Under the pieces are notes generated by a model, which made no database searches, had not been told where the DNA came from, and worked only from the letters and a program-made list of their open reading frames with translations. The translations under genes were made by a program, and so were the position numbers. DNA of 56,583 nucleotides from a virus: positions 1 through 56,583 of the IMG/VR virus record IMGVR_UViG_3300036785_000557; one strand, written 5' to 3'. Positions within the stretch are counted from its first letter, which is position 1, and each line of letters starts with the position of its first letter. Positions 4,601 through 40,588 of the stretch are shown here, piece by piece.

Positions 4601-5380
4601 TTATTTTCGGACAGCTAGTTTGGTTTCCAGCACCCATTCCACCCCATCGACTACGGCGCTTGGCACGCCGGTTTTCTTGTTTTTGGAGACATCCATAACC
4701 GCCTTCAACACTTCCAGATTCGGCATCATGTACTCGCGCGGGATTTTCTTCGGGTCCACGATCTTCACCACCCATTTCCCGCGCAGGCTGGACATGCCCC
4801 CCAGATCCCCGCGCACCTGACTTTGCTGCCCGACCGGCGCTGCCGCTTCGGCCGCCGCGTCCATGGCGTCCTGCTCGGCCTGGAGTGCGAGCATAGGGTC
4901 GCTCGCCCGGCCCGCCAGCGCGATCTCTGCCTCGCGCGCCGCCCGCGCCGCCGCCGCCTGGGCCGCTTCCTGGGCTTGCCGGAGCTTGACCTTGGCGTAG
5001 GCATCCATCGGCCTCAGAAGATCGTCTATGGCCGCCCGGATCGGCCCGGCCAGCTCGGCATTCAGCACGGCATCGACAATCCGGCCGCCATGCAAGAATG
5101 GTTCTTTGGCGAGGGTATGCACACTGGCCGGCTTGCCATGGTAGGCTTCCAGCACGGTTTTGAGCTGCGCCACCTGTTCGGTGGCCGCGCCCTGATCCTC
5201 ATCATCTGCGATGCCGTGCGGGTGTGTGGCCTTCCAGTTCTCGGCCGCCGCCACCAGCGCCGCCTGTTCGGTAAACAGATGGGCATATGTGTCGCGCAAC
5301 CGCGCGGCTAGGGTCTCAAGATCAATGATTTCCTTGGGATCAAACGGTTGAAGGTTGTGCCCCTTGGCTGGCTCAGACAT
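4601..5380 (-). CDS. Conserved phage protein with coiled coil (259 aa)
   Basis: ATG at 5380 with GAGGTG upstream. The centre (about 130-190) is a long Ala/Glu/Arg-rich helix, predicted coiled coil. The C-terminal part begins VRGDLGGMSSLRGKWVVKIV and continues PKKIPREYM, a motif I remember from phage proteins encoded beside recombination and replication genes; no biochemical role is known to me. It sits between the GcrA-like gene and small genes in the leftward early operon. Confidence 0.65.
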   Translation of the reverse strand: MSEPAKGHNLQPFDPKEIIDLETLAARLRDTYAHLFTEQAALVAAAENWKATHPHGIADDEDQGAATEQVAQLKTVLEAYHGKPASVHTLAKEPFLHGGRIVDAVLNAELAGPIRAAIDDLLRPMDAYAKVKLRQAQEAAQAAAARAAREAEIALAGRASDPMLALQAEQDAMDAAAEAAAPVGQQSQVRGDLGGMSSLRGKWVVKIVDPKKIPREYMMPNLEVLKAVMDVSKNKKTGVPSAVVDGVEWVLETKLAVRK

Positions 5381-24645: not shown

Positions 24646-27201
24646 TTAGCTCCTTTGATTCGGTATTTCTTCGACTATCCCCGACACCTCAAGCCCAGGT
24701 GACCCCATTGCATGTGTCGAAAGCACATAGGACAATCCTAGATAGTTCAAAGTGATGTCCTCGGCGGTTGTTGAGAGCGTCAGCCCCAAGAACATACCCG
24801 CGCCGTCATTCAGACCATACGAAAATACGGGATACCCTATCGTGTACGCATTGGCCAAGGAAAAGGTCATTGGCTCACCATCGTTGAGCGGATAAGAGCC
24901 CGCTTCCGTGTCCAAACTCACAGTCATCGGGATAGGCGCACCGCGCGTCCCGAGGTTCTGCGCCGTTATCGTCGTGGTCCAGACCTGCTTCACGAGATAG
25001 GGCACGCCGGCCCCAAATAACTTGGTGGAAAGCGTGCTGGTGATGGCGCTGCTTGGCGTCTGGAACATCTGGTAGAGATGAGTGCCATCCGTGCCCCAGG
25101 CTGAAAGGTCCGAATTGATCTCCTGCGTGCCAATAAACGTCATTTTTGGCGATTGCGAGGCCACGCACCACCCCTGCTCATCCCACACGATCATTTTATT
25201 GGCCATAGTCAGGGTGACGGGGTTCTGCATGGTCAAAAGCAGCAAATAATACTTTCCTCCAAAAATGTTGGCAGCGGCCGATGACGGGCGCAGGCCACCG
25301 TTCACCGGGAAAACTGCGTTGGTGAACAGTGGGTCGAGATCCTTGGAGATTTTTGTCGCAGCGCCGCCATAGAGCGCGTACACGCCAAGCGCGTTGGCAA
25401 ACACGATGGCACGGCCAAAGTCCTGCACGCTGTCCCGCCATGGTGTGCCCACCTGCGGGTCGGTGTTCTGGTACTGGAATGTGGTGGTGGGCGGATTTCC
25501 GGCCGTATTCACGCCGGAGATGATGGCCACCGAAGAATCACCAAACGGGTAGAGATAACCGTTGCTCTGCCGCAAGTTGGTATAGGTCTGGCGCAGGAAA
25601 CGGTCGGATGAAACATAGATCAACCCACCATCCGAGGTGGCAAAATCACTGATCGAACCGGGTGCCGACACCAGGATTTTGTTGTTGTTGTTTTTTGATG
25701 GCGGTGAGTTTGGCGGCGTCCAAGGCGCTGCGATAAACACCCGCGATTGGAACGTCTCAATGGCGATGCCCGATACGCCGTAAGGCATGAGGCTGACAGT
25801 GGCCGAGGCAGAGCGGTTGATGGCCGATTCCACGATCACCGATGGCGCGGTAAAATAGCCGCTACCGGGGTTCGTGATCGTGACACTGCTAATCGAGGTC
25901 GGTGTTAGCGTGGCAATTGCCCCCGCGCCCGTGCCGCCACCGCCGGTTAGGGTGACGACTGGCGGGGCTGTATAGCCAGACCCGGCGTTGGTGATGGTGT
26001 ACGAGGCCACCGCGCCGTTGGCGATGGTGGCGGTCGCCGTGGCAGTCACGCCGCCCGCCTGTGGTGCTGCAATTGCCACGGTCGGGGCCGAGGTGTAGCC
26101 GGAACCCCCACCCCCCGCGATGCTGGATATGGACGTGGGGGCCAAATTGGCGGTCGCGGTCGCGTTTGTGCCGCCGCCGCCGGTTATGGTCAGCACGGGG
26201 GCCAGCGTATAGCCAGTGCCGCCATTTATGACGGATATGGACCCGATGGTGCCTGGATTCAGTTCGGCTGTTGCGGAGGCCCCAGATCCGCCGCCGCCGG
26301 TAAATGAGACAATTGGTGCCGAGACATAGCCACTGCCTGGATTAGTCAGGGTCACGCTGACGACTTGGCCGCCGGAGATGTTCGCCGTGCCCGAGGCCCC
26401 GGTGCCAATCAGCGCCGCGAAGTTGACGGCCGGCGGGCTGGTATAACCCGAGCCGCCACCCGTGATGACGATGGTGGAAACGCCGGTTGATTGCACATTG
26501 GCGGAAAGCAGCGCTTGGTTATCGGTGCCGCCGCCGGAAAACCCCAGCGTCACACTGTCATTGATCTGGTAGCCCAACCCTGGGTTTGCCACCGCGAGGC
26601 TCACCACTGAACCATTCACCACCTGCGGCACCAGCACGATGCCCGAGCCGGAGCCACCAATAACCTGGATATTTGGTGCGCCTGTATATCCGGTGCCGCC
26701 ATCCGTGATCGTCACGATGGGTGAGATGCCACCGGCTGTGTAAAGAATTGCGCCGTCCCAAACAAAATAAGCGTTCTGGTTGTGGTTGTTGCCAATGAGA
26801 AGATATTGACTGCCCCATTGCGCACAAGCCGGGAGACTTCCACCAGAAAGCATAAAAGTGCCGGGCGCGTTGCTGATAATGGTACTGGCACCTGTCACCG
26901 TGTTGATCTGAACAGCCGTGCCATCGTTGTAGAAAACGGCAACATAATTTGAGCCGTTGATATTGTAGAAGAAGAAAAACACTATGGTTTTTCCAATAGG
27001 TGCGGTCCAAAGCGGGGATGCCACATCCCATAGGGTGCGCAGATTTCCCTCGCCCACCAAAATCCAATTCTCGGAATAGAAGAATTGCTGATCGCGGATG
27101 GCGATACGGCTGGCGGACAGGTTCATGCCCGCGAAGGGGAACATCACCGCTTGCTGGAGGCCCGGTGGTAACCCTAGATCATCACCTTGTCTCCTGGCCA
27201 T
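24646..27201 (-). CDS. Tail hub / packaged-DNA stabilisation protein (P22 gp10-like) with a GGxGY repeat array (851 aa)
   Basis: N-terminal part LPPGLQQAVMFPFAGMNLSA, FYSENWILVGEGNLRTLWDV and KTIVFFFFYNINGSNYVAVF matches the gp10-type tail hub. The C-terminal part (RVFIAAPWTPPNSPPS..., SVAIISGVNTAG, YGGAATKISKDLDPLF) continues the beta-propeller-like hub. Residues about 160-455 are an inserted array of about eight repeats of some 35 residues (GGxGYTxxPxVxxxGGGGxGAxATA). Gp10 homologues are usually about 470-550 residues, so the array explains the excess. Confidence 0.75.
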   Translation of the reverse strand: MARRQGDDLGLPPGLQQAVMFPFAGMNLSASRIAIRDQQFFYSENWILVGEGNLRTLWDVASPLWTAPIGKTIVFFFFYNINGSNYVAVFYNDGTAVQINTVTGASTIISNAPGTFMLSGGSLPACAQWGSQYLLIGNNHNQNAYFVWDGAILYTAGGISPIVTITDGGTGYTGAPNIQVIGGSGSGIVLVPQVVNGSVVSLAVANPGLGYQINDSVTLGFSGGGTDNQALLSANVQSTGVSTIVITGGGSGYTSPPAVNFAALIGTGASGTANISGGQVVSVTLTNPGSGYVSAPIVSFTGGGGSGASATAELNPGTIGSISVINGGTGYTLAPVLTITGGGGTNATATANLAPTSISSIAGGGGSGYTSAPTVAIAAPQAGGVTATATATIANGAVASYTITNAGSGYTAPPVVTLTGGGGTGAGAIATLTPTSISSVTITNPGSGYFTAPSVIVESAINRSASATVSLMPYGVSGIAIETFQSRVFIAAPWTPPNSPPSKNNNNKILVSAPGSISDFATSDGGLIYVSSDRFLRQTYTNLRQSNGYLYPFGDSSVAIISGVNTAGNPPTTTFQYQNTDPQVGTPWRDSVQDFGRAIVFANALGVYALYGGAATKISKDLDPLFTNAVFPVNGGLRPSSAAANIFGGKYYLLLLTMQNPVTLTMANKMIVWDEQGWCVASQSPKMTFIGTQEINSDLSAWGTDGTHLYQMFQTPSSAITSTLSTKLFGAGVPYLVKQVWTTTITAQNLGTRGAPIPMTVSLDTEAGSYPLNDGEPMTFSLANAYTIGYPVFSYGLNDGAGMFLGLTLSTTAEDITLNYLGLSYVLSTHAMGSPGLEVSGIVEEIPNQRS

Positions 27202-28695: not shown

Positions 28696-29772
28696 TTACT
28701 GCGGGTTCAGATAGTTCGTGTCTGTGACGCCGCCCATCGTGAGCGTCACCACGGCGGCGGTGGTTACGATGCCATTGCCACCAAGGATTTGAATTGTCCC
28801 AGCCGTGGGCACGGCCTCGTATGACCCGCCATCGAGGACATTGCCACCGACCAAAATCCCGCCCGCCGCCGATGTGGGCGCCACGATTTGTGATAGGCGC
28901 GGCCGTGGAAAACCTACCTGCGAGGACGGATTGATATAGGCCGACACGCCAGCGGTAAGCAGCGGTGCTGCCGAGATCGTTACCGCGCCAGCGGCGGCCG
29001 TATAACCCGCGCCTGCCGTGGTGACGGCGTAGCCGGTAACCGCGTCATTCATGATCGCGGTTGCGGCAGCGCCCGTGCCCCCGCCACCCGAGATCGTGAG
29101 AACGGGAACAGCGCCGCCTGCGGTCGGCGTGCCATGGTTATTACAAAGAACCGCCGTGACGGTGCCAAGCCCGGTCAGGCTGGCCACGGCAATGGCATTC
29201 GCGCCCGTGCTATCGCGCGGATCGTTAATCAGCGTCACCTGCGGCGGGAAGGTATAGCCCGCCCCCTGGTCAATGAGGGTGATGGCGGTGACCGCACCAG
29301 CGGTGATCGTCGCAAAGGCCGTTGCCTGGACGCCGGGCGACGGCGGGGCCTGGATCACCACTTCCGGTGGGAATTGGTAATTTGAACCGCCTGAAGGCAG
29401 AGCGATGGTGCTTACCACCTGCCCGAGAATGGCCGTCCATGTTGAGTTACCGGCCGAGGCAACGACAAGCGGCGGCGTGGTGTAGCCCGTGCCTGCGGCG
29501 GTCAGAAGCGCCGCGACGGCGCAGCCGGACGTGTTGGCAAGCCGGGTGTTCACGCCATCGCAATACCAGAAGGCATTGGCATTCGGCGTGGAGGTCGGCC
29601 GCCAGATGTTGCCGATGAAGTCAAAAGATTGGATGTTGGTATATTTGCCAAGGATGGCACGATACCAGTTCGCGGGCGGCAACCAAGCCTGACCAGCTTC
29701 CAAAGCCACCAGATTCGAGCCGAGCGTGCCGAGGTTATTTGCAACCCCAGGACCACCAAAACGAGTAGGCAT
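28696..29772 (-). CDS. Virion protein with GGxGY-type repeats (358 aa)
   Basis: After an N-terminal part (MPTRFGGPGVANNLGTLGSN) most of residues 75-290 are beta repeats (LTAAGTGYTTPPLVVASAGN; ITLIDQGAGYTFPPQVTLIN; GGGGTGAAATAIMND). Immediately downstream of the major capsid protein and before the terminator, so possibly a capsid decoration or head fibre protein. Exact role unknown. Confidence 0.6.
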   Translation of the reverse strand: MPTRFGGPGVANNLGTLGSNLVALEAGQAWLPPANWYRAILGKYTNIQSFDFIGNIWRPTSTPNANAFWYCDGVNTRLANTSGCAVAALLTAAGTGYTTPPLVVASAGNSTWTAILGQVVSTIALPSGGSNYQFPPEVVIQAPPSPGVQATAFATITAGAVTAITLIDQGAGYTFPPQVTLINDPRDSTGANAIAVASLTGLGTVTAVLCNNHGTPTAGGAVPVLTISGGGGTGAAATAIMNDAVTGYAVTTAGAGYTAAAGAVTISAAPLLTAGVSAYINPSSQVGFPRPRLSQIVAPTSAAGGILVGGNVLDGGSYEAVPTAGTIQILGGNGIVTTAAVVTLTMGGVTDTNYLNPQ

Positions 29773-29789: not shown

Positions 29790-30854
29790 TTACAGAACAG
29801 CCGGAGGCCCGGCGACATTCGGCCATGCCGGCGCGGCAAGGCCCGTGATGTGCGCGCCAGATGAAGGCTTGGCGCAAACCAGATTAAGCGCGGTGAGCAA
29901 CACGCCGATGGAGGCGAGCTGGCCGAGCGGGATCAGAGATTCAAAGCCGGTGAAGATGAAGGGCGCGGCTTCAGACACGTACATGGCGAGGTAGCGCGAA
30001 TTGATCGCGTACATCTCACCGCGCGGGCACCACGGATCTGGGAAGATCGGCGTGTTCAACACCTGGATGGCGCGGAAGCCGGAATTCACCACATCGCCCT
30101 TGCCATAGCGCGAGCGCGGGTTGGTCATGAATTGCTCCAGACCCATGAAATCAGTCATGAGTGTGGCCCAATCGGCGGGGTTCATCACCGCAAAATCGGC
30201 ATCCTCGCCGCCGGCCCCGGTCATCACGCGCGTCAGGGTGATGGCCATGCCACCACGGGACGCCACCTGCCCGACACCGCCGGAATTCGGATAATACTGG
30301 CCCTGCCAGAAGGCGTTGGTTTTGGCGATGCCGCCGTAAGAGGCAACATTGGTGCCGTTATCGTAGGCCCCGAGGAGCGAATCCAGCGCATTCGGATTGT
30401 TGGTGTTGTTGGTATAGAGCGCCTGCGCCAACGCCTGTTTGATGACGATTGCCGCGTCCGCCGTCACCGCGCGGAGTTTCGGAATAATCACCTCGGAGGA
30501 TTGTACGATGGCTTCCAGGTTGAAGAAGCCAATCGGCACCATGCCGATTTTGAGGTTGAAGGTCGCATTTTGAATAGCGGCCTGATCCTCGGGCATCGGG
30601 AAGTCGCCCGCGAAGCTACCCCAGTTGAAGGAGGTGAAGGACGATCCCTGCGTGGGGATGGTGATCTGCGACACACCACCGCGCGCGGCTTGCGCATTGG
30701 CGAGGAGCAAGGAGAGCAACGGATGGCTCTGGTAGATCTGGACAAACAACGAAGGAACAACGGCGCGGCGCGTGATGTTCTGGAGTTGCTGACCTAGTGC
30801 CCCAGTTGGGGTAAGGCCGCCAGACAGGCCAGCCGTAAAGGTGGTTTGGGACAC
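29790..30854 (-). CDS. Major capsid protein (354 aa)
   Basis: Position after the scaffold-like gene, length and sequence fit a capsid protein: LGQQLQNITRRAVVPSLFVQ, LEAIVQSSEVIIPKLRAV, YDNGTNVASYGGIAKTNAFW, FMGLEQFMTNPRSRYGKGD and a beta-rich end with FPDPWCPRGEMYAINSRYLA. Presumably HK97-fold, although no motif proves the fold. It would form the icosahedral shell together with the portal. Confidence 0.8.
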   Translation of the reverse strand: MSQTTFTAGLSGGLTPTGALGQQLQNITRRAVVPSLFVQIYQSHPLLSLLLANAQAARGGVSQITIPTQGSSFTSFNWGSFAGDFPMPEDQAAIQNATFNLKIGMVPIGFFNLEAIVQSSEVIIPKLRAVTADAAIVIKQALAQALYTNNTNNPNALDSLLGAYDNGTNVASYGGIAKTNAFWQGQYYPNSGGVGQVASRGGMAITLTRVMTGAGGEDADFAVMNPADWATLMTDFMGLEQFMTNPRSRYGKGDVVNSGFRAIQVLNTPIFPDPWCPRGEMYAINSRYLAMYVSEAAPFIFTGFESLIPLGQLASIGVLLTALNLVCAKPSSGAHITGLAAPAWPNVAGPPAVL

Positions 30855-30888: not shown

Positions 30889-31485
30889 TTACGCGGCGTC
30901 TTCATTCATAATTTGGGCAGTCATCTTGTCCTGCCACGCGACTGGATCTCGATGCAGTTCCGCAATACTCTCGTCCGAACCGCTGGTGTCGCCAGTGCCA
31001 AACAGATTCATTTTCTGCGGCAGATATCCGTTGCCTTTGAGCGGCGCGGGCGGCTTCGGAAGCGTTTCGATGAAGGCTGGTGCTGCCAACGCAGGATCGG
31101 CGGTGCCCTTCTCCGTCATGAAGGCGATGAATTTTTCCTTGGTCTCGCCTGTGAAGCCGCGTGCGGTTGCGATGCGATCAACGTCCGCCTGCAAACCGCC
31201 AAGCGCCTTCTCATTTTGCGAGGCAAGCTGTTGCGCGTCGTAGGTTTCCTGAAGTTTTTTCAGGGCGGCGCGTGTTTCCTCCAACTCGGACTTCATCGGC
31301 GCAAGAAGCTTCTCGCCTTGGTCGATGACGGGGAAGTTGAGTTTTGGATCAAGCTTCTTCAGGCGGCGCTGGATGTCGAGACCATCCTCGCCGGACGTGA
31401 GCTTGTCCAATAACGAATAGGCAGTGCGCAGAGCGGCCAGTTCGGACGCGGGAATCTGCTCAATCTCATCTGGTTTCCCGGCCAT
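30889..31485 (-). CDS. Capsid scaffold-like protein (198 aa)
   Basis: Acidic and helical, with a predicted coiled coil around residues 65-105 (LEETRAALKKLQETYDAQQL). The C-terminal part contains helices ending QDKMTAQIMNEDAA. Directly upstream of the capsid gene. These are the usual marks of a phage scaffold; no protease motif is visible. Confidence 0.65.
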   Translation of the reverse strand: MAGKPDEIEQIPASELAALRTAYSLLDKLTSGEDGLDIQRRLKKLDPKLNFPVIDQGEKLLAPMKSELEETRAALKKLQETYDAQQLASQNEKALGGLQADVDRIATARGFTGETKEKFIAFMTEKGTADPALAAPAFIETLPKPPAPLKGNGYLPQKMNLFGTGDTSGSDESIAELHRDPVAWQDKMTAQIMNEDAA

Positions 31486-31682: not shown

Positions 31683-32201
31683 TTAAGCCGCTTCTTGATC
31701 TGGACCGGGGCCGCCACCGGGCGGTCCTGGCGGTGGCGCCGCTGGCGGCGGCGGTGTCATTGCCGGCGGCGCATTCGGTGGCGCTTGCGCCATCTGCGCG
31801 AGCTGCGCGTGCGGTTGCTGTTGGGCTACCTGCTGGGCGGCCATGCGAAGCTGCTGGATCTGCTGTTGATCGGCGCCCACACCCGTATCTGGAATGTGCT
31901 TGGCGAGCTGACCAACTGTCTTTAGCAGATCGTTATGAAAATCTGATCCCATCGGGATGGCGGGCAACGCGGTCTGGATCAGCAATAACGCTGTTCGGAC
32001 CTTTGCAATGGCCGCCAATGTGTTTCCGGGATTGCCTTGCGGGCCTGCTACTCCACCCGTGCCGGGTGGCGCGGCCATCATGCTTGGCGGTAAGGGGGCC
32101 GGGCCAGCCGGACCCCCTGGACCTGGACCGGCAGGGACTCCACCACCACTCCGCATGAGCGCGGCGAGTTGCGGGGGGACTTGGCCCTGCGCGGCTGACA
32201 T
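31683..32201 (-). CDS. Pro/Gln/Ala-rich structural-region protein (172 aa)
   Basis: Central helical part (KVRTALLLIQTALPAIPMGS, LLKTVGQLAKHIPD) flanked by Gly/Pro-rich ends and a QQQ-rich helix. Similar proteins lie between portal and scaffold in podovirus-like phages. Its ATG overlaps the stop of the 12-codon mini-gene (TAATG). Confidence 0.6.
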   Translation of the reverse strand: MSAAQGQVPPQLAALMRSGGGVPAGPGPGGPAGPAPLPPSMMAAPPGTGGVAGPQGNPGNTLAAIAKVRTALLLIQTALPAIPMGSDFHNDLLKTVGQLAKHIPDTGVGADQQQIQQLRMAAQQVAQQQPHAQLAQMAQAPPNAPPAMTPPPPAAPPPGPPGGGPGPDQEAA

Positions 32202-32239
32202 TACTTGCGGCCCTTACGGTGCCCTTTGCGACGTGCCAT
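32201..32239 (-). CDS. Mini-gene 1: basic 12-residue peptide MARRKGHRKGRK
   Basis: ATG at 32239 follows GAGGAGG with ideal 5-base spacing; the TAA overlaps the next ATG (TAATG). A second mini-gene 55 bp upstream encodes MKRKGHRKGRK. In the nine shared codons (RKGHRKGRK) the two copies differ at five positions, all synonymous third bases, which indicates selection on the peptide. Eight of 12 residues are Lys, Arg or His; it could bind DNA, RNA or an acidic protein during packaging. No known family. Confidence 0.72.
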   Translation of the reverse strand: MARRKGHRKGRK

Positions 32240-32294
32240 CGAATCCTCCTCGGATTAAATTATTGCGGGAAAGGCGAAACAGTCTCAGGGACCG

Positions 32295-32330
32295 TTACTT
32301 ACGGCCCTTGCGGTGACCCTTACGTTTCAT
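32295..32330 (-). CDS. Mini-gene 2: basic 11-residue peptide MKRKGHRKGRK
   Basis: ATG at 32330 is preceded by GGAG at a spacing of 7. Same C-terminal nine residues as mini-gene 1, encoded with different synonymous codons. It is the first open frame after the portal stop, separated from it by 155 noncoding bases that hold a near-palindrome (32442-32460) and a weak TTGACT promoter element. Confidence 0.65.
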   Translation of the reverse strand: MKRKGHRKGRK

Positions 32331-32485
32331 GACACAGCTCCACTTGGGTTGTGGGGAGTCCGGGCAACCCGGTCCCTTTGTGTTTCGCCCATATCGGCGT
32401 CCGAGACTCGTATTCCCAAATCGGCAAAAAAGTCAATTAAATTGGAATATTATTCTCCAACATGACTCTCATCGCAATTATTTTT

Positions 32486-34366
32486 CTAAGTTTTTACGAG
32501 TTTTGGTCCCGATGGCGGGCCGCCCGCCCCTGGCTTTTGCTGCTGTGCCTGGGCTTGCGCCGCCGCCTGCGCCGCCTGTGCCTGCGCGGCTTGCGCAATC
32601 ATCGCCTTCACCTCGGCCTCGTGCGCGTCAGCCACAATTTCATCGACATTCTGCGGGTTAATCATCTCGATAAATTGCTCTGGCGAGATCGCACCCGCCT
32701 TCTTCAGCACCAGCGCCTTCTGTATGCCCTCATCGCCAAAGGCCGGGCTGGCACTATGGCTGTCCACCATGACGCGGATGGTCTGCGGCAGATCGTGCAT
32801 TTTGAATTGCACAGGGCGCATCCCATCGGCCGGCGGCACCAGCGTCGGATCATCCGGGATACCCGCCGCTTCATCCGAGGCGGGCGGCATGTACCAGCCG
32901 ACCAGCGTATCAATGCTCTTGGCCCGCAAGAGATCTGTAACAATGGCGGCAGATTTTTGAATCGCGCGCTCGATGCGGATGGCTTTTTGCTTGAAGCGTG
33001 GCGTGGCGTTTTTAGTCATCTGCTCCGCCTGCCCTGCCGTGCGTACCGAGCCCGACGCCATGCCCTGCAATGTTGGCGTCATGCCGGTCATCACATCGAA
33101 CATGCGCTCAGATTCCTTCAGGCTCTCATACAGCCCCGGCGGCAAGGTCGGTGCCAACATCACGGGCGGTTTAGCGGTGATGTCATTCTCATACAGCCAG
33201 CCGCCCGGCTTGGTCAGCTTGGACTTCTTCTGTTGCGTCATCGTCGTGCCACCCTGGAACCATGCGGGCGGATCTTCCTGAAGGCGCAGGAGCCGGTTGA
33301 TGCCGTTGACGCGTTTATTTACTGAAGATTGCAGCAAAGCAAGATTTGCTATTTCACTGCGGCCCCAGAAATAGCCGGCCAAACGGTTGGGGCAAAACTC
33401 CACGAAAGGCTGCTTGAAGGCCAGCGGATTGCCCTCATCCGGCGCGCGGTGAAATGTCTTATTGTTCGGGTCGAGCATGTCAGCCCAGATATTCATGCGC
33501 TGCTCCCGGCCAAAGATGATGACGTTGCCGACCAACTGAAGCGTCGTCCACTCCCGCCGGCCTTCATCGTCCTGGCGCGCGTCATCCTTGATCCACAGCT
33601 CGTCCACGCGGATGAGATCGGTGATAACCTTGGGGTCGAAGCTCGGGTACGGCCCGGCCAGCCATTGCACCATGCCGTTGGGGGTCTGCGGATTGGCGCT
33701 GCCGATGCCACCCTGCCCCTGGTACGGCTGGAAGCCACCCAGAATTACCTGCTTGAGTAAAGCGGCCTGATCCGGCGAATCAGCGCTGCGGGTCTGCGTG
33801 GCAAACCCCATCGCGCGCTTGTAGATCTTCTCTTTATCGGGATGGTCGCGGATCAGGAGCTTGAATTGGTCGGTGGTGATGTAGGTTGAATGGGTGAAAG
33901 CCTCCTGCTCATCGAGCGTTTGCAGATCCGGCCGGTACACCCCCATGAATTCCGGCATCACCAGCACGGGTTCAAGCCCGTTCACAGACCAGAGGTGCTT
34001 GATGAAGGTTTTGCCCAGCACCAGGGACCAGCGCGTGGCCTCCTCATACTGCGTATCCAGATCGCAGGCCCGCGATTGCTCCAGCACTTCATCGGCCGCC
34101 GCCGCGCCCTTGGCGCGCTCCACCTTACTGCCGCCATACCGGAATTTGACCTTGAATCGGAGGTCCACCGAGCTGCATAGGAACGATGTCATGTCCTCTA
34201 TGGCGTCGAATGTTTTGTTGAAAATTTCAGCATCGCCTTGCTCGTTCCCGACGAGGTAGAGATTGCGGAAAAAGGCCGATTTTTGCAGCCGGTCCATACG
34301 GTCGGACGTGCAGATGTTGGCGATCTCGCCGCACCACTCCTCCATGCCACGATCTGGAATAATCAT
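32486..34366 (-). CDS. Portal protein (626 aa)
   Basis: Large protein directly after the terminase region: TFDAIEDMTSFLCSSVDLRF, TRWSLVLGKTFIKHLWSVNG, FVEFCPNRLAGYFWGRSEIA and NGINRLLRLQEDPPAWFQGG are portal-like, and the C-terminus is a Gln/Ala-rich helix as in the portal barrel/tail. It would form the dodecameric ring for DNA packaging. Longer than siphovirus portals (about 400-500) and within the range of podoviral ones. Confidence 0.85.
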   Translation of the reverse strand: MIIPDRGMEEWCGEIANICTSDRMDRLQKSAFFRNLYLVGNEQGDAEIFNKTFDAIEDMTSFLCSSVDLRFKVKFRYGGSKVERAKGAAAADEVLEQSRACDLDTQYEEATRWSLVLGKTFIKHLWSVNGLEPVLVMPEFMGVYRPDLQTLDEQEAFTHSTYITTDQFKLLIRDHPDKEKIYKRAMGFATQTRSADSPDQAALLKQVILGGFQPYQGQGGIGSANPQTPNGMVQWLAGPYPSFDPKVITDLIRVDELWIKDDARQDDEGRREWTTLQLVGNVIIFGREQRMNIWADMLDPNNKTFHRAPDEGNPLAFKQPFVEFCPNRLAGYFWGRSEIANLALLQSSVNKRVNGINRLLRLQEDPPAWFQGGTTMTQQKKSKLTKPGGWLYENDITAKPPVMLAPTLPPGLYESLKESERMFDVMTGMTPTLQGMASGSVRTAGQAEQMTKNATPRFKQKAIRIERAIQKSAAIVTDLLRAKSIDTLVGWYMPPASDEAAGIPDDPTLVPPADGMRPVQFKMHDLPQTIRVMVDSHSASPAFGDEGIQKALVLKKAGAISPEQFIEMINPQNVDEIVADAHEAEVKAMIAQAAQAQAAQAAAQAQAQQQKPGAGGPPSGPKLVKT

Positions 34367-35294: not shown

Positions 35295-37145
35295 CTAAGC
35301 TAAACCCCTATCCGATAGATATTGGTTGGGTTCCGGCTCATCGACGGGGGCGTTAAGCATGGTGAAAATCTTAGCGTTCAGGATCTCGGATATTTTAGCT
35401 TCCAGATGATCGGGCGTGACCATCACACGGTTGTAGGTAAGGCCCTGGGAGATCAAATTCGGGCGAAACCACTGCTTCCAGGCGACATCGGCCAGCGCAG
35501 CGGCGAACACGCGGTCATCATGCAGGCCGGAGGGTGCGCCGATCTCCCCGCCATCCTGCACCACGGCCATCATTTCCTTCAGGCAAGGCACCGAATGCAC
35601 CGCGAGCTGCGAGGTGATGAGGGAATCACGCAGGCCGGAGAGCATCGTCCACTTGCTGCGGTGCGTGGTCTCCCAGTTATAGGCGTAGCCCGGCCCCATA
35701 GAGTCCGGCCGGTGGTAGAGATACCAGCGCATGGTCTCCAGATAGTCCGACGCGCCGTCATGCCCGATGGCCTTCTGATATTCCTCAGAACGGAGCTGTT
35801 CACGAAGCGATTTCAGCTCATTCATCACCGCATGACCAGGCCCCCCGATCTCCAGGTTCACCATGCAGTTCTTGTAATAGCCCGCCATATACGCCAGCAC
35901 CCAGGCCACTTGCCGCGTGTCGCATTTATTGTCGGCATATTCCGCCACCTGCACCATTTTATCCGCGAAGCACCGGAACACGCTGATGCAGTGCCGGTCG
36001 TTATTGTCGTTGCGGCCGAATGCGGGGTCTGCGCCGATCACGTATTGCGCGCCATCCGCCGGTTCGGTCCAAACACGCAGCTCCACCTCGGCCACGCGCC
36101 GTGCATCGTCAATCCACTCCATTTTGGAGGCTTTGAAATCATTCCCGAGGTAGAATTTGAAGCCCATGAAGGGCACTTCGCGGGCCACCTCAATGAGATC
36201 TGCCACATTGCGGGTCTGGAAAAAGCTGTAGCCGGTCTGAATGAAGGCATCATTCTCAGTCCACGGCTGGCTTTCATCCAGACTTTCGGCCGTGGTGGCT
36301 TTGCTGCTTTCACGCCAGCGATACCACGCCAATTGTTCGGCCGAAATCTTGTGATTGTAGAGGTCTTTGACGGCCTCGATGCGCTCTTGCTCGCGCGGGG
36401 TTGGGTGCGCGGCGCCGAACACCTTGAAACGCGGGTCGCGGCGCGAGATGGCGTTCTGCGGCTTGGCCCACCAGCCGACAAAGATGCGGCCACGGGTGAA
36501 AATATCCTCGCCGGCATCCTCCCACATCCGCATCCAGTGATTCATGCCGTGCGCGGTGGACTCGAACAGGTAAAGCCGGTCGGGATTATGCTCGGAAAGG
36601 GTCTCCATGAAGGATTGCAGGCCCTCGGCCCGCCCGTATTTGGAAACCTCGGTGAGCAACGCCACGGTGTAGGCGCGAGATTCACCCCATGTCGTCTTGC
36701 TCTTGCCCGCCACCAGGAAATCCAGGCGCGAGCCATTGGAAAATTGCATGTATTTCGAGTTTGACGCGGTAATGGTGAAGGCTTTGCCAAAATACTGGGT
36801 CGGAAAACTGTCCATGTAGCGCGTCAGAATGTCGCGGAACACGTCGCGGTTGGGATCGTTATCGACCACCAGCGCGCCAAAGATCCGGGGATGCACGGCC
36901 AGCCAGAACAGCAAGATGGCCAAGGTAACGGTGGTCACGCCGAGCTGCCGGGATTTCAGAATATAAAAAACGTGGACACCATTGGTCAGGCTGGTGCCCA
37001 CGTAATTCAAAACCCGGCTCTGACTGTCCCATAAGACCAGCTTGGAGCCCCGCTCATCGGTCGAAGGGGCTTCTTTCGAGACAATCCGCAAATTGTCTAT
37101 GAAGTTTGAGAATAGCGGCAACCATTTTTGCAGCTTACCCGCCAA
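35295..37145 (-). CDS. terL: Terminase large subunit (616 aa)
   Basis: ATPase: KSRQLGVTT at 64-72 is a variant Walker A, and VALLTEVSKYG at about 161-171 the Walker B/catalytic Glu region. Nuclease: VIGADPAFG (metal Asp) and LHDDRVFAAALADVAW near the end. It cuts and pumps DNA into the capsid through the portal. It overlaps the J-domain gene by 11 bp. No classical small terminase is obvious; candidates are the two genes upstream of the J-domain protein. Confidence 0.9.
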   Translation of the reverse strand: MAGKLQKWLPLFSNFIDNLRIVSKEAPSTDERGSKLVLWDSQSRVLNYVGTSLTNGVHVFYILKSRQLGVTTVTLAILLFWLAVHPRIFGALVVDNDPNRDVFRDILTRYMDSFPTQYFGKAFTITASNSKYMQFSNGSRLDFLVAGKSKTTWGESRAYTVALLTEVSKYGRAEGLQSFMETLSEHNPDRLYLFESTAHGMNHWMRMWEDAGEDIFTRGRIFVGWWAKPQNAISRRDPRFKVFGAAHPTPREQERIEAVKDLYNHKISAEQLAWYRWRESSKATTAESLDESQPWTENDAFIQTGYSFFQTRNVADLIEVAREVPFMGFKFYLGNDFKASKMEWIDDARRVAEVELRVWTEPADGAQYVIGADPAFGRNDNNDRHCISVFRCFADKMVQVAEYADNKCDTRQVAWVLAYMAGYYKNCMVNLEIGGPGHAVMNELKSLREQLRSEEYQKAIGHDGASDYLETMRWYLYHRPDSMGPGYAYNWETTHRSKWTMLSGLRDSLITSQLAVHSVPCLKEMMAVVQDGGEIGAPSGLHDDRVFAAALADVAWKQWFRPNLISQGLTYNRVMVTPDHLEAKISEILNAKIFTMLNAPVDEPEPNQYLSDRGLA

Positions 37146-37803
37146 GGAAATTCCCTCTTAATATCGAATCAACCAATGACATCACAGGAGGGGGTGGGTG
37201 TGTCTTAGCGCGTTCCACCTCAAATTCATATTCCATTAAAATTTCAATGGCTTTGTCGGCGGCTTTGAGGTTGCGATCCTGAAAAGCGATCTGCTCCGCG
37301 CAACTCGTGATGCGCCCCGCGATCATCGCCTCCAGCAAATTTGGCTCATCGGATTTATGGCGGCGCTTGAACCGACGCACGAGCCGCTGATTCACAGCCC
37401 GTATGCGCTCGATGTTGGTTTTGTTATCGCGCGCAGACTGCTTATATTTTTCCAGACTATACTTCATCCGAGACACAAGATTGAATGACGTGATGAAATC
37501 AACGCCAGAATTCTTGGCGATGTCGGCCATCACCTCATCAAGCGCGGTTGAGACCAGATTCATGGCCTCGGCAAAGGCATTGTCGGGGGATTTCTCGCTG
37601 CAATCGCCTGTGGCATCGTACTTTGCCCGGCGCTCTGCATCGCCCAGAATATCATGCGCCAACTTCACCAGAGCAAAGCTTTCCGCGCTGCCGGTCTCCT
37701 GATTATCCGGGTGCGCCTTCTTCGCTTTACTGCGATAAGCACGGTGGATGGCCGCCTTATCGGCGGTCTTTGGTACGTCTAAAATCTCATATAAGTCCTT
37801 CAT
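37135..37803 (-). CDS. J-domain (DnaJ-like) co-chaperone protein (222 aa)
   Basis: Residues 1-68 are a J domain: LYEILDVPKTADKAAIHRAY, the HPD tripeptide at 31-33, then LAHDILGDAERRAKYD. The other 150 residues are helical and basic (RLVRRFKRRHKSD) without zinc fingers, so it is a class C J protein. J domains stimulate Hsp70 (DnaK). Overlapping terL, it might recruit host DnaK for terminase or capsid assembly (inference), or replace a small terminase partner. Confidence 0.8.
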   Translation of the reverse strand: MKDLYEILDVPKTADKAAIHRAYRSKAKKAHPDNQETGSAESFALVKLAHDILGDAERRAKYDATGDCSEKSPDNAFAEAMNLVSTALDEVMADIAKNSGVDFITSFNLVSRMKYSLEKYKQSARDNKTNIERIRAVNQRLVRRFKRRHKSDEPNLLEAMIAGRITSCAEQIAFQDRNLKAADKAIEILMEYEFEVERAKTHPPPPVMSLVDSILRGNFLGG

Positions 37804-38469: not shown

Positions 38470-39108
38470 TCATTCTCCCACTTGTGATTCCAACTCCACT
38501 TCCGGTGCCCTGGCGGAAACGATCTCCCCCAGGATACGCAACACCGTGCTGTGGCCGGTGCCGGTGGCCTTATGCACGGCCCACGGTTTGGCCCCGCCCA
38601 CCAGCATTGACCGCACCAGCTCGTACCGTTCGGGATCGGCTACCTCGATACGCTTAGGCCCTGGCAGCTTGCCCTGGGCTTTGGCCCGCGCCATCCCCGC
38701 CTTCACCCGGTCACGGATCAGTGACCGCTCAAACTCCGCAAACACCCCGATCATCTGGAACATCGCGCGCCCGGCCGGCGTGGTGGTATCGACGTTCTGC
38801 TGGTGCAGGTAGAGATTGACACTGGCCGCATCCAAATCCGCGAGCATCTGAAGCAGGTTCATCACGCTGCGCGCCAGACGATCAACACTCCAGCACATCA
38901 CCACGTCAAACTTTCCTTGTGCTGCTGCTTTCAACATTTGATGCAAGCCCGGCCGAGACCCCCGATCCTTGGCCCCCGAGATCCCGTGATCCGAATATTC
39001 CTTCACAATTTTCCAGCCGCGATGGGCGGCAACGGCGCGCAATTCGCGCTCCTGGTTGAGACATGTCTGATCGTTTGTGCTGACCCGGCTATAGATTGCG
39101 ACCCGCAT
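38470..39108 (-). CDS. Serine recombinase, resolvase/invertase type (212 aa)
   Basis: MRVAIYSRVSTNDQ places the catalytic Ser at position 10; SVDRLARS at 74-81 holds the conserved Arg residues; LIRDRVKAGMARAKAQGKLP is the E-helix end; and a C-terminal HTH (WAVHKATGTGHSTVLRILGE) completes the small resolvase plan (about 185-210 residues). It may resolve replicon multimers or invert a segment. It is the only DNA recombinase besides RusA/RecT, and no tyrosine integrase is present, so plasmid dimer resolution is the favoured role. Large serine integrases are twice as long. Confidence 0.88.
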   Translation of the reverse strand: MRVAIYSRVSTNDQTCLNQERELRAVAAHRGWKIVKEYSDHGISGAKDRGSRPGLHQMLKAAAQGKFDVVMCWSVDRLARSVMNLLQMLADLDAASVNLYLHQQNVDTTTPAGRAMFQMIGVFAEFERSLIRDRVKAGMARAKAQGKLPGPKRIEVADPERYELVRSMLVGGAKPWAVHKATGTGHSTVLRILGEIVSARAPEVELESQVGE

Positions 39109-39910: not shown

Positions 39911-40588
39911 ATGAAAGCACCCAAAAGCATGAAAACAATAGTGATCGCCTCACAGAAGGGCGGTAGCGCCAAAACCACGCTAACCGCCCTCCTCTCCGTG
40001 GCGGTGGAACAAGCCGGCGATGGCCCGGCCTGGATCATCGACACCGACTACCAGGGCACTCTGGCCCGCTGGCATGAACGCCGGGAGAGCGAGGTGCCGC
40101 AGCGTGCCCATATGCCGTGGCGGGATCTCCGGGCTGGGCTGGTAACCATCGCGGACAAGCACCGTGGCGCATATTGCTTCATCGACACCGCACCAACGGT
40201 CCAACACGACAACGCCGCAATCATCGACTTGGCCGATCTGGTTATCATTCCCGTACAGCCCTCGCCGCTTGATCTGTGGTCGGCCGCTGAAACCATTCAA
40301 ATGGTGAAAGACTTAAACAAGCCTTTCATGTTTGTCCTCACCAAATCCAATGCACGGGCCAACATCACAGCCCAGACCGTGGCGGCTTTATCGAACCATG
40401 GCCGGGTGGCCGCCAGCTTCATTGCTGACCGCGTGGGCTATGCGGTGGCCATGGCACGGGGCAATACCGCGCCGGAATTACAGCCAAATGGCGTGGCCGC
40501 CGACGAGGTTTCGCTACTTTGGAGTGAGATTAAAGCAACATTTACCCCAATCCGCAAAAGAGCAAAGGAAGTATTAACCCATGGCTAA
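39911..40588 (+). CDS. parA: ParA partition ATPase
   Basis: 225 residues. Deviant Walker A QKGGSAKTT at 15-23, DTDYQGT at 44-50 and Walker B CFIDTAPT at 89-96 define a small ParA of the type Ib kind, without N-terminal HTH. An internal ATG at 39929 (MKTIVIASQ) is an alternative start. It would bind nucleoid DNA and move the replicon through an adaptor, here the RHH protein of the next gene, with which it overlaps by 8 bp. This is strong evidence for plasmid-like maintenance. Confidence 0.9.
   Translation: MKAPKSMKTIVIASQKGGSAKTTLTALLSVAVEQAGDGPAWIIDTDYQGTLARWHERRESEVPQRAHMPWRDLRAGLVTIADKHRGAYCFIDTAPTVQHDNAAIIDLADLVIIPVQPSPLDLWSAAETIQMVKDLNKPFMFVLTKSNARANITAQTVAALSNHGRVAASFIADRVGYAVAMARGNTAPELQPNGVAADEVSLLWSEIKATFTPIRKRAKEVLTHG

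Follow-up and report, generated by a model that had tools for sequence, protein, structure and literature searches.

Small basic packaging peptides are known from several virus groups, among them protein J of the microvirus phiX174, the adenovirus core peptide mu and baculovirus P6.9, and arginine-rich RNA-binding motifs are known from phage lambda N (with boxB) and BIV Tat (with TAR). The micro-genes described here, which lie in tailed phages and encode peptides of 9-23 residues, resemble the packaging peptides in that their products are short, very basic, poor in hydrophobic residues and encoded among structural genes, but phiX174 J, mu and P6.9 are longer and come from unrelated viruses, and the micro-gene peptides differ further in having arginines anchored to the stop codon, a hairpin after the gene and no evidence of a virion location. 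With lambda N and BIV Tat they share an Arg-rich peptide of similar length and a hairpin nearby, but they have neither a conserved hairpin loop or sequence nor an effector part. The succession of a promoter, a short ORF, a hairpin and then structural genes is that of the trp, his and tna attenuator leaders, from which the micro-genes are set apart by the lack of antiterminator complementarity, by favoured codons, by the presence of several copies, and by a hairpin that is weak in the clade of the window and has a T-rich tail in a minority of cases. Conserved small genes have been predicted in phages (Fremin et al. 2022, cited in PMC11323111), and the micro-genes are likewise small and conserved. 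No published description of the micro-genes themselves was found in open papers, a search that did not extend to the principal small-phage-gene catalogue.

The window, by which we mean the whole stretch of DNA analysed, is a viral record 56,583 bases long in which the capsid operon and its surroundings are organized as follows.

29790-30854, minus strand: major capsid protein (MCP; phrog_9953, E = 2.9e-19)
30889-31485, minus strand: scaffold-like acidic protein of 198 aa, pI 4.8, named from position and composition only
31683-32201, minus strand: Pro/Ala/Gly-rich protein of 172 aa (Pro-rich gene), whose counterpart in relatives comes immediately after the micro-genes
32201-32239, minus strand: micro-gene 2, MARRKGHRKGRK, whose stop overlaps the next start (TAATG)
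32245-32251, minus strand: GAGGAGG ribosome site of micro-gene 2, spacing 5
32278-32296, minus strand: hairpin following micro-gene 1, weak at -6.5 kcal/mol; most relatives have a much stronger hairpin there
32295-32330, minus strand: micro-gene 1, MKRKGHRKGRK, of a class kept in 74 of 75 representatives
32338-32341, minus strand: GGAG ribosome site of micro-gene 1, spacing 7
32409-32414, minus strand: weak -10-like AATACG, 16 nt after TTGACT
32431-32436, minus strand: -35-like TTGACT, an imperfect match in the window; relatives are enriched for TTGACA here
32486-34366, minus strand: portal protein (phrog_156; P22_portal below the cut-off)

A sequence-only reading had pointed to the two tiny frames between the portal and Pro-rich genes, and the frames (both on the minus strand), their ribosome sites with the spacings given above and the TAATG overlap were all confirmed as written; in the order of transcription, the frame that it listed first (MARRKGHRKGRK) is the second. 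The promoter, the hairpin, the C-terminal arginine spacing and the linkage to the capsid operon were absent from that reading. The scaffold-like protein, which is acidic as are the MCP and the portal, had no PHROG or Pfam match. Also on the minus strand of the window, a CCGGG-TTG-CCCGG hairpin lies upstream of micro-gene 1 (32360-32372), Gly-rich repeat proteins matching phrog_701 and phrog_460 are encoded at 24646-27201 and 28696-29772, a DnaJ-like (J-domain-like) ORF with similar ORFs in L006 and L007 adjoins the terminase gene (37135-37803), and a DNA invertase-like gene occupies 38470-39108; a ParA-like gene is found on the plus strand (39911-40588).

The nine codons shared by the twin copies differ, as had been noted, at five bases, every one of them a synonymous third position (P = 3.5e-4 for five random substitutions all being synonymous). 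A DNA-level repeat as the source of the twins was rejected, the flanks of the two copies being unlike. Only two other ORFs passed a relaxed scan of the 56.6-kb window, neither of the same type, and the twin arrangement is a trait of the window clade.

Relatives were gathered through their similarity to the portal and MCP, or were GenBank records encoding a related portal, the exceptions being L002 and L003, which entered through a peptide pattern (the L002 contig was also recovered by similarity). The resulting 140 regions upstream of the MCP gene gave 75 representatives sharing less than 90% nucleotide identity. A strict micro-ORF (ATG start, ribosome site of at least 4 nt, 9-20 aa, at least 42% Lys+Arg) was present in 66 of the 75 within a 550-nt zone at -1700 to -1150 of the MCP, whereas dinucleotide shuffles averaged 0.16 and never exceeded 2; strict matches in that zone numbered 81 in sense and one in antisense, and the zones on either side held five matches in 107 kb and two in 86 kb. 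Shuffles, antisense strand and flanking zones thus rule out chance ORFs. With criteria relaxed in position, length or start codon, a micro-ORF was found in 74 of the 75 representatives (one copy in 52, two in 20 and three in 2), the one without it, L154, being covered by only 1.6 kb of upstream sequence; six calls were removed by hand from the relaxed list as unlike the family, which makes the relaxed counts softer than the strict ones. A reverse scan of IMG/VR for DNA encoding RHKGRKGRK-stop returned 20 contigs, all with a portal relative and a micro-ORF nearby and all belonging to the same lineage and the same place, and DNA encoding KGHRKGRK-stop was found in two contigs with the same gene context. 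The micro-ORF is a general feature of an uncultivated tailed-phage lineage rather than of the window alone, and the search of related phages that the sequence-only reading had proposed recovered polybasic mini-frames kept at the same place.

No cultured carrier was found, the portal and MCP of the window matching only the metagenomic records MW202753 and MW202825, and a single MAG contig with a related MCP was identified among genome contigs. No such gene was seen upstream of the MCP in distant MCP relatives (among them Myxococcus phages Mx8 and Mx9, BUCT555 and a Bradyrhizobium phage), nor was any of this type seen in P22, in the epsilon15 head module or in the examined parts of phiEco32 and T7. 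Solved structures gave no sequence match to the MCP or portal of the window. In MW202753 (L009), antisense hypothetical genes (4740-4877 and 4874-5038) are annotated over both micro-genes, across 4740-5038.

Selection was assessed in 35 comparisons of close pairs (MCP at least 95% identical, micro-ORFs of the same length, at most 35% nucleotide difference), which are not mutually independent and whose nucleotide-difference limit favours similar pairs. Changes at third, first and second positions numbered 78, 15 and 16, and 65 of the changed codons were synonymous and 20 were not. Divergence of the ORF was 8.6%, against 44% and 39% in the ungapped flanks, whose values are inflated by indels; at wider divergence (MCP at least 80% identical, no nucleotide limit), pN/pS was 0.53. 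Fourfold sites diverged by 0.22 in the micro-ORFs and by 0.34 in the MCP of the same pairs, and since these sites are fairly free, the letters of the RNA are not what is chiefly conserved. The proposal that the peptide itself is selected was borne out, in that relatives keep the mini-frames and close relatives vary chiefly at third positions. Judging from these substitution patterns, it is near certain that the amino acids of the micro-gene peptides are under selection, and on such comparative evidence the micro-genes are genuine, if unannotated, protein-coding genes.

The 98 micro-genes of the 74 representatives encode peptides of 9-23 aa (median 12) that consist of 33% Arg and 24% Lys (57% together) and carry a median net charge of +7, which meets the packaging-peptide criterion of a highly basic short product. 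Arginine occupies positions -2, -5 and -9 from the stop in 96, 74 and 85% of first copies, against an expectation of 34% at these positions when residues are shuffled within peptides, and in 100, 82 and 90% when a single peptide is taken per MCP cluster (<75% identity, n = 11). Lysine is the last residue before the stop in 65 of 74, variation in length falls at the N terminus, and the motif ends exactly at the stop. A composition-only reading, with residue order not kept, was dropped after these counts. The stop-anchored spacing of the arginines indicates that more than charge is conserved, and their fixed positions speak against a protamine that works by charge alone. An additional polybasic ORF, at most 27 aa long (MMKAKSKSTMRSTKNMARKHMKRKGRK), is present inside the capsid operon of L029, where it separates the Pro-rich gene from the small gene that comes next and has no evident hairpin.

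The capsid unit opens with the micro-ORF as its first cistron, and a promoter-like element of the TTGACA type often precedes it: among 74 upstream regions, 33 contain TTGACA where 2.2 would be expected, and a two-hexamer promoter score of at least 10 is reached in 20 (1.7 expected). Next downstream of the micro-gene comes the Pro-rich gene, in most cases after a gap of 50-90 nt; the MCP is further away in five relatives (L024, L084, L100, L110 and L138), which have added DNA between the Pro-rich gene and the MCP. Of 71 representatives, 43 have the portal and MCP genes on different strands and 28, the window included, have them on the same one, and because the portal is so often on the other strand, the micro-gene belongs to the capsid unit and not to the portal. 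Ribosome-site energy is -7.4 for the micro-ORF against -4.0 for the next gene (p = 9e-20), CGT makes up 36% of the arginine codons of micro-genes against 14-16% in portal and MCP, rare arginine codons account for 2%, and 77 of the 98 micro-genes end in TAA.

Predicted RNA structure is strongest immediately beyond the stop codon that ends the first micro-ORF (mean z of -2.5 at position +10) and is weak elsewhere. The best stem-loops there have a median of -24.4 kcal/mol and a median start 5 nt after the stop, and 88% of them are at -10 kcal/mol or below. In clade L058-L147, the only one in which covariation was examined, 99.1% of cells in the stem are paired, 6 of 13 pairs have changed on both sides and the covariation score was reached by none of 500 shuffles, a figure that is less than a probability given that the rows are related. 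Across the lineage, neither the loops (compared by inspection) nor the stem sequences are conserved, and no known RNA family was found at the element. In the window clade (window, L004 and L013), copies persist with weak hairpins, or with a last stop at most 17 nt before the next start. A T-rich tail (at least 5 T of 8) follows 12 of the 64 strong hairpins (mean 2.95 against 2.05 further downstream).

Our preferred reading, to which we assign a probability of roughly 0.45, is that the peptide acts in trans during head assembly, being made in excess and binding DNA or acidic head proteins. Transcription would end in part at or near the hairpin, a partial termination that remains unproven with so few T-rich tails, and the peptide would as a result outnumber the capsid proteins on a molar basis. 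Its spaced arginines may then let it bind the packaged DNA, or the acidic surface of the scaffold, portal or shell, in a manner resembling that of unrelated small basic packaging peptides from other virus groups. Duplication, the persistence of copies in the window clade where the hairpin is weak, the extra ORF of L029 and the favoured codons all speak for a trans-acting product. A need for the peptide in building or filling the virus head is probable but unproven, there being no expression, virion or mutant data. The more specific proposal of a lineage-wide head-assembly or packaging factor of 9-23 residues, with its arginines spaced R-x3-R-x2-R-K from the stop, that would represent a protamine-like system in tailed phages is put forward only tentatively.

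The anatomy of the locus together with the stop-anchored arginines favours instead a cis-acting leader, in which the nascent polybasic chain or the terminating ribosome would control read-through past the hairpin and the released peptide would be inert. The locus has the layout of an attenuator leader, with a short ORF that follows a promoter and precedes a hairpin and then an operon, weakly so in the window clade; the micro-ORF is the first cistron after the promoter-like element and always directly upstream of the Pro-rich gene, its residues keep their distances from the stop codon while the N terminus is free, and the hairpin begins where a terminating ribosome would lie over it. Pairing between the 5' arm of the hairpin and upstream RNA, however, shows no excess (mean z -0.23, sd 1.18), giving no sign of classical antiterminator pairing, the arginine codons are favoured rather than rare, 22 of the 74 representatives carry tandem copies, and polybasic frames occur in the window clade, where the hairpin is weak, and at the second site of L029, where none is evident. 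We regard such a leader as rather unlikely, but the present analyses, resting as they do on sequence comparison, do not decide between it and a trans-acting product.

Alternatively, the product might be an Arg-rich RNA-binding peptide that recognizes the hairpin on the transcript encoding it and thereby modulates how the capsid operon is transcribed or translated. Its arginine content, its size, which is that of known RNA-binding motifs, and the covariation of the adjoining hairpin in the clade tested are compatible with this idea, but the variability of loops and stems across the lineage, the weakness of the hairpin in the window clade and a peptide too short for a separate effector part leave it clearly improbable, though not ruled out. 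Short cationic peptides can be antimicrobial, a role that the sequence-only reading had entertained, but hydrophobic residues apart from Ala (9%) are too few for a good fit and the position is within the capsid operon, such that an antimicrobial or host-toxic peptide, like the chance ORFs contradicted above, deserves very little credence.

In a diverse lineage, a gene present in 74 of the 75 phages compared has thus escaped notice through its extreme shortness, and comparison of the intergenic DNA around head genes can expose real genes of about ten codons. Should the peptide act in the head, it would constitute a minimal DNA- or capsid-binding module; should it act on the ribosome, it would be a switch of the capsid operon. 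If they do encode a head-assembly or packaging factor, the micro-genes would rank among the smallest conserved genes of a structural module.
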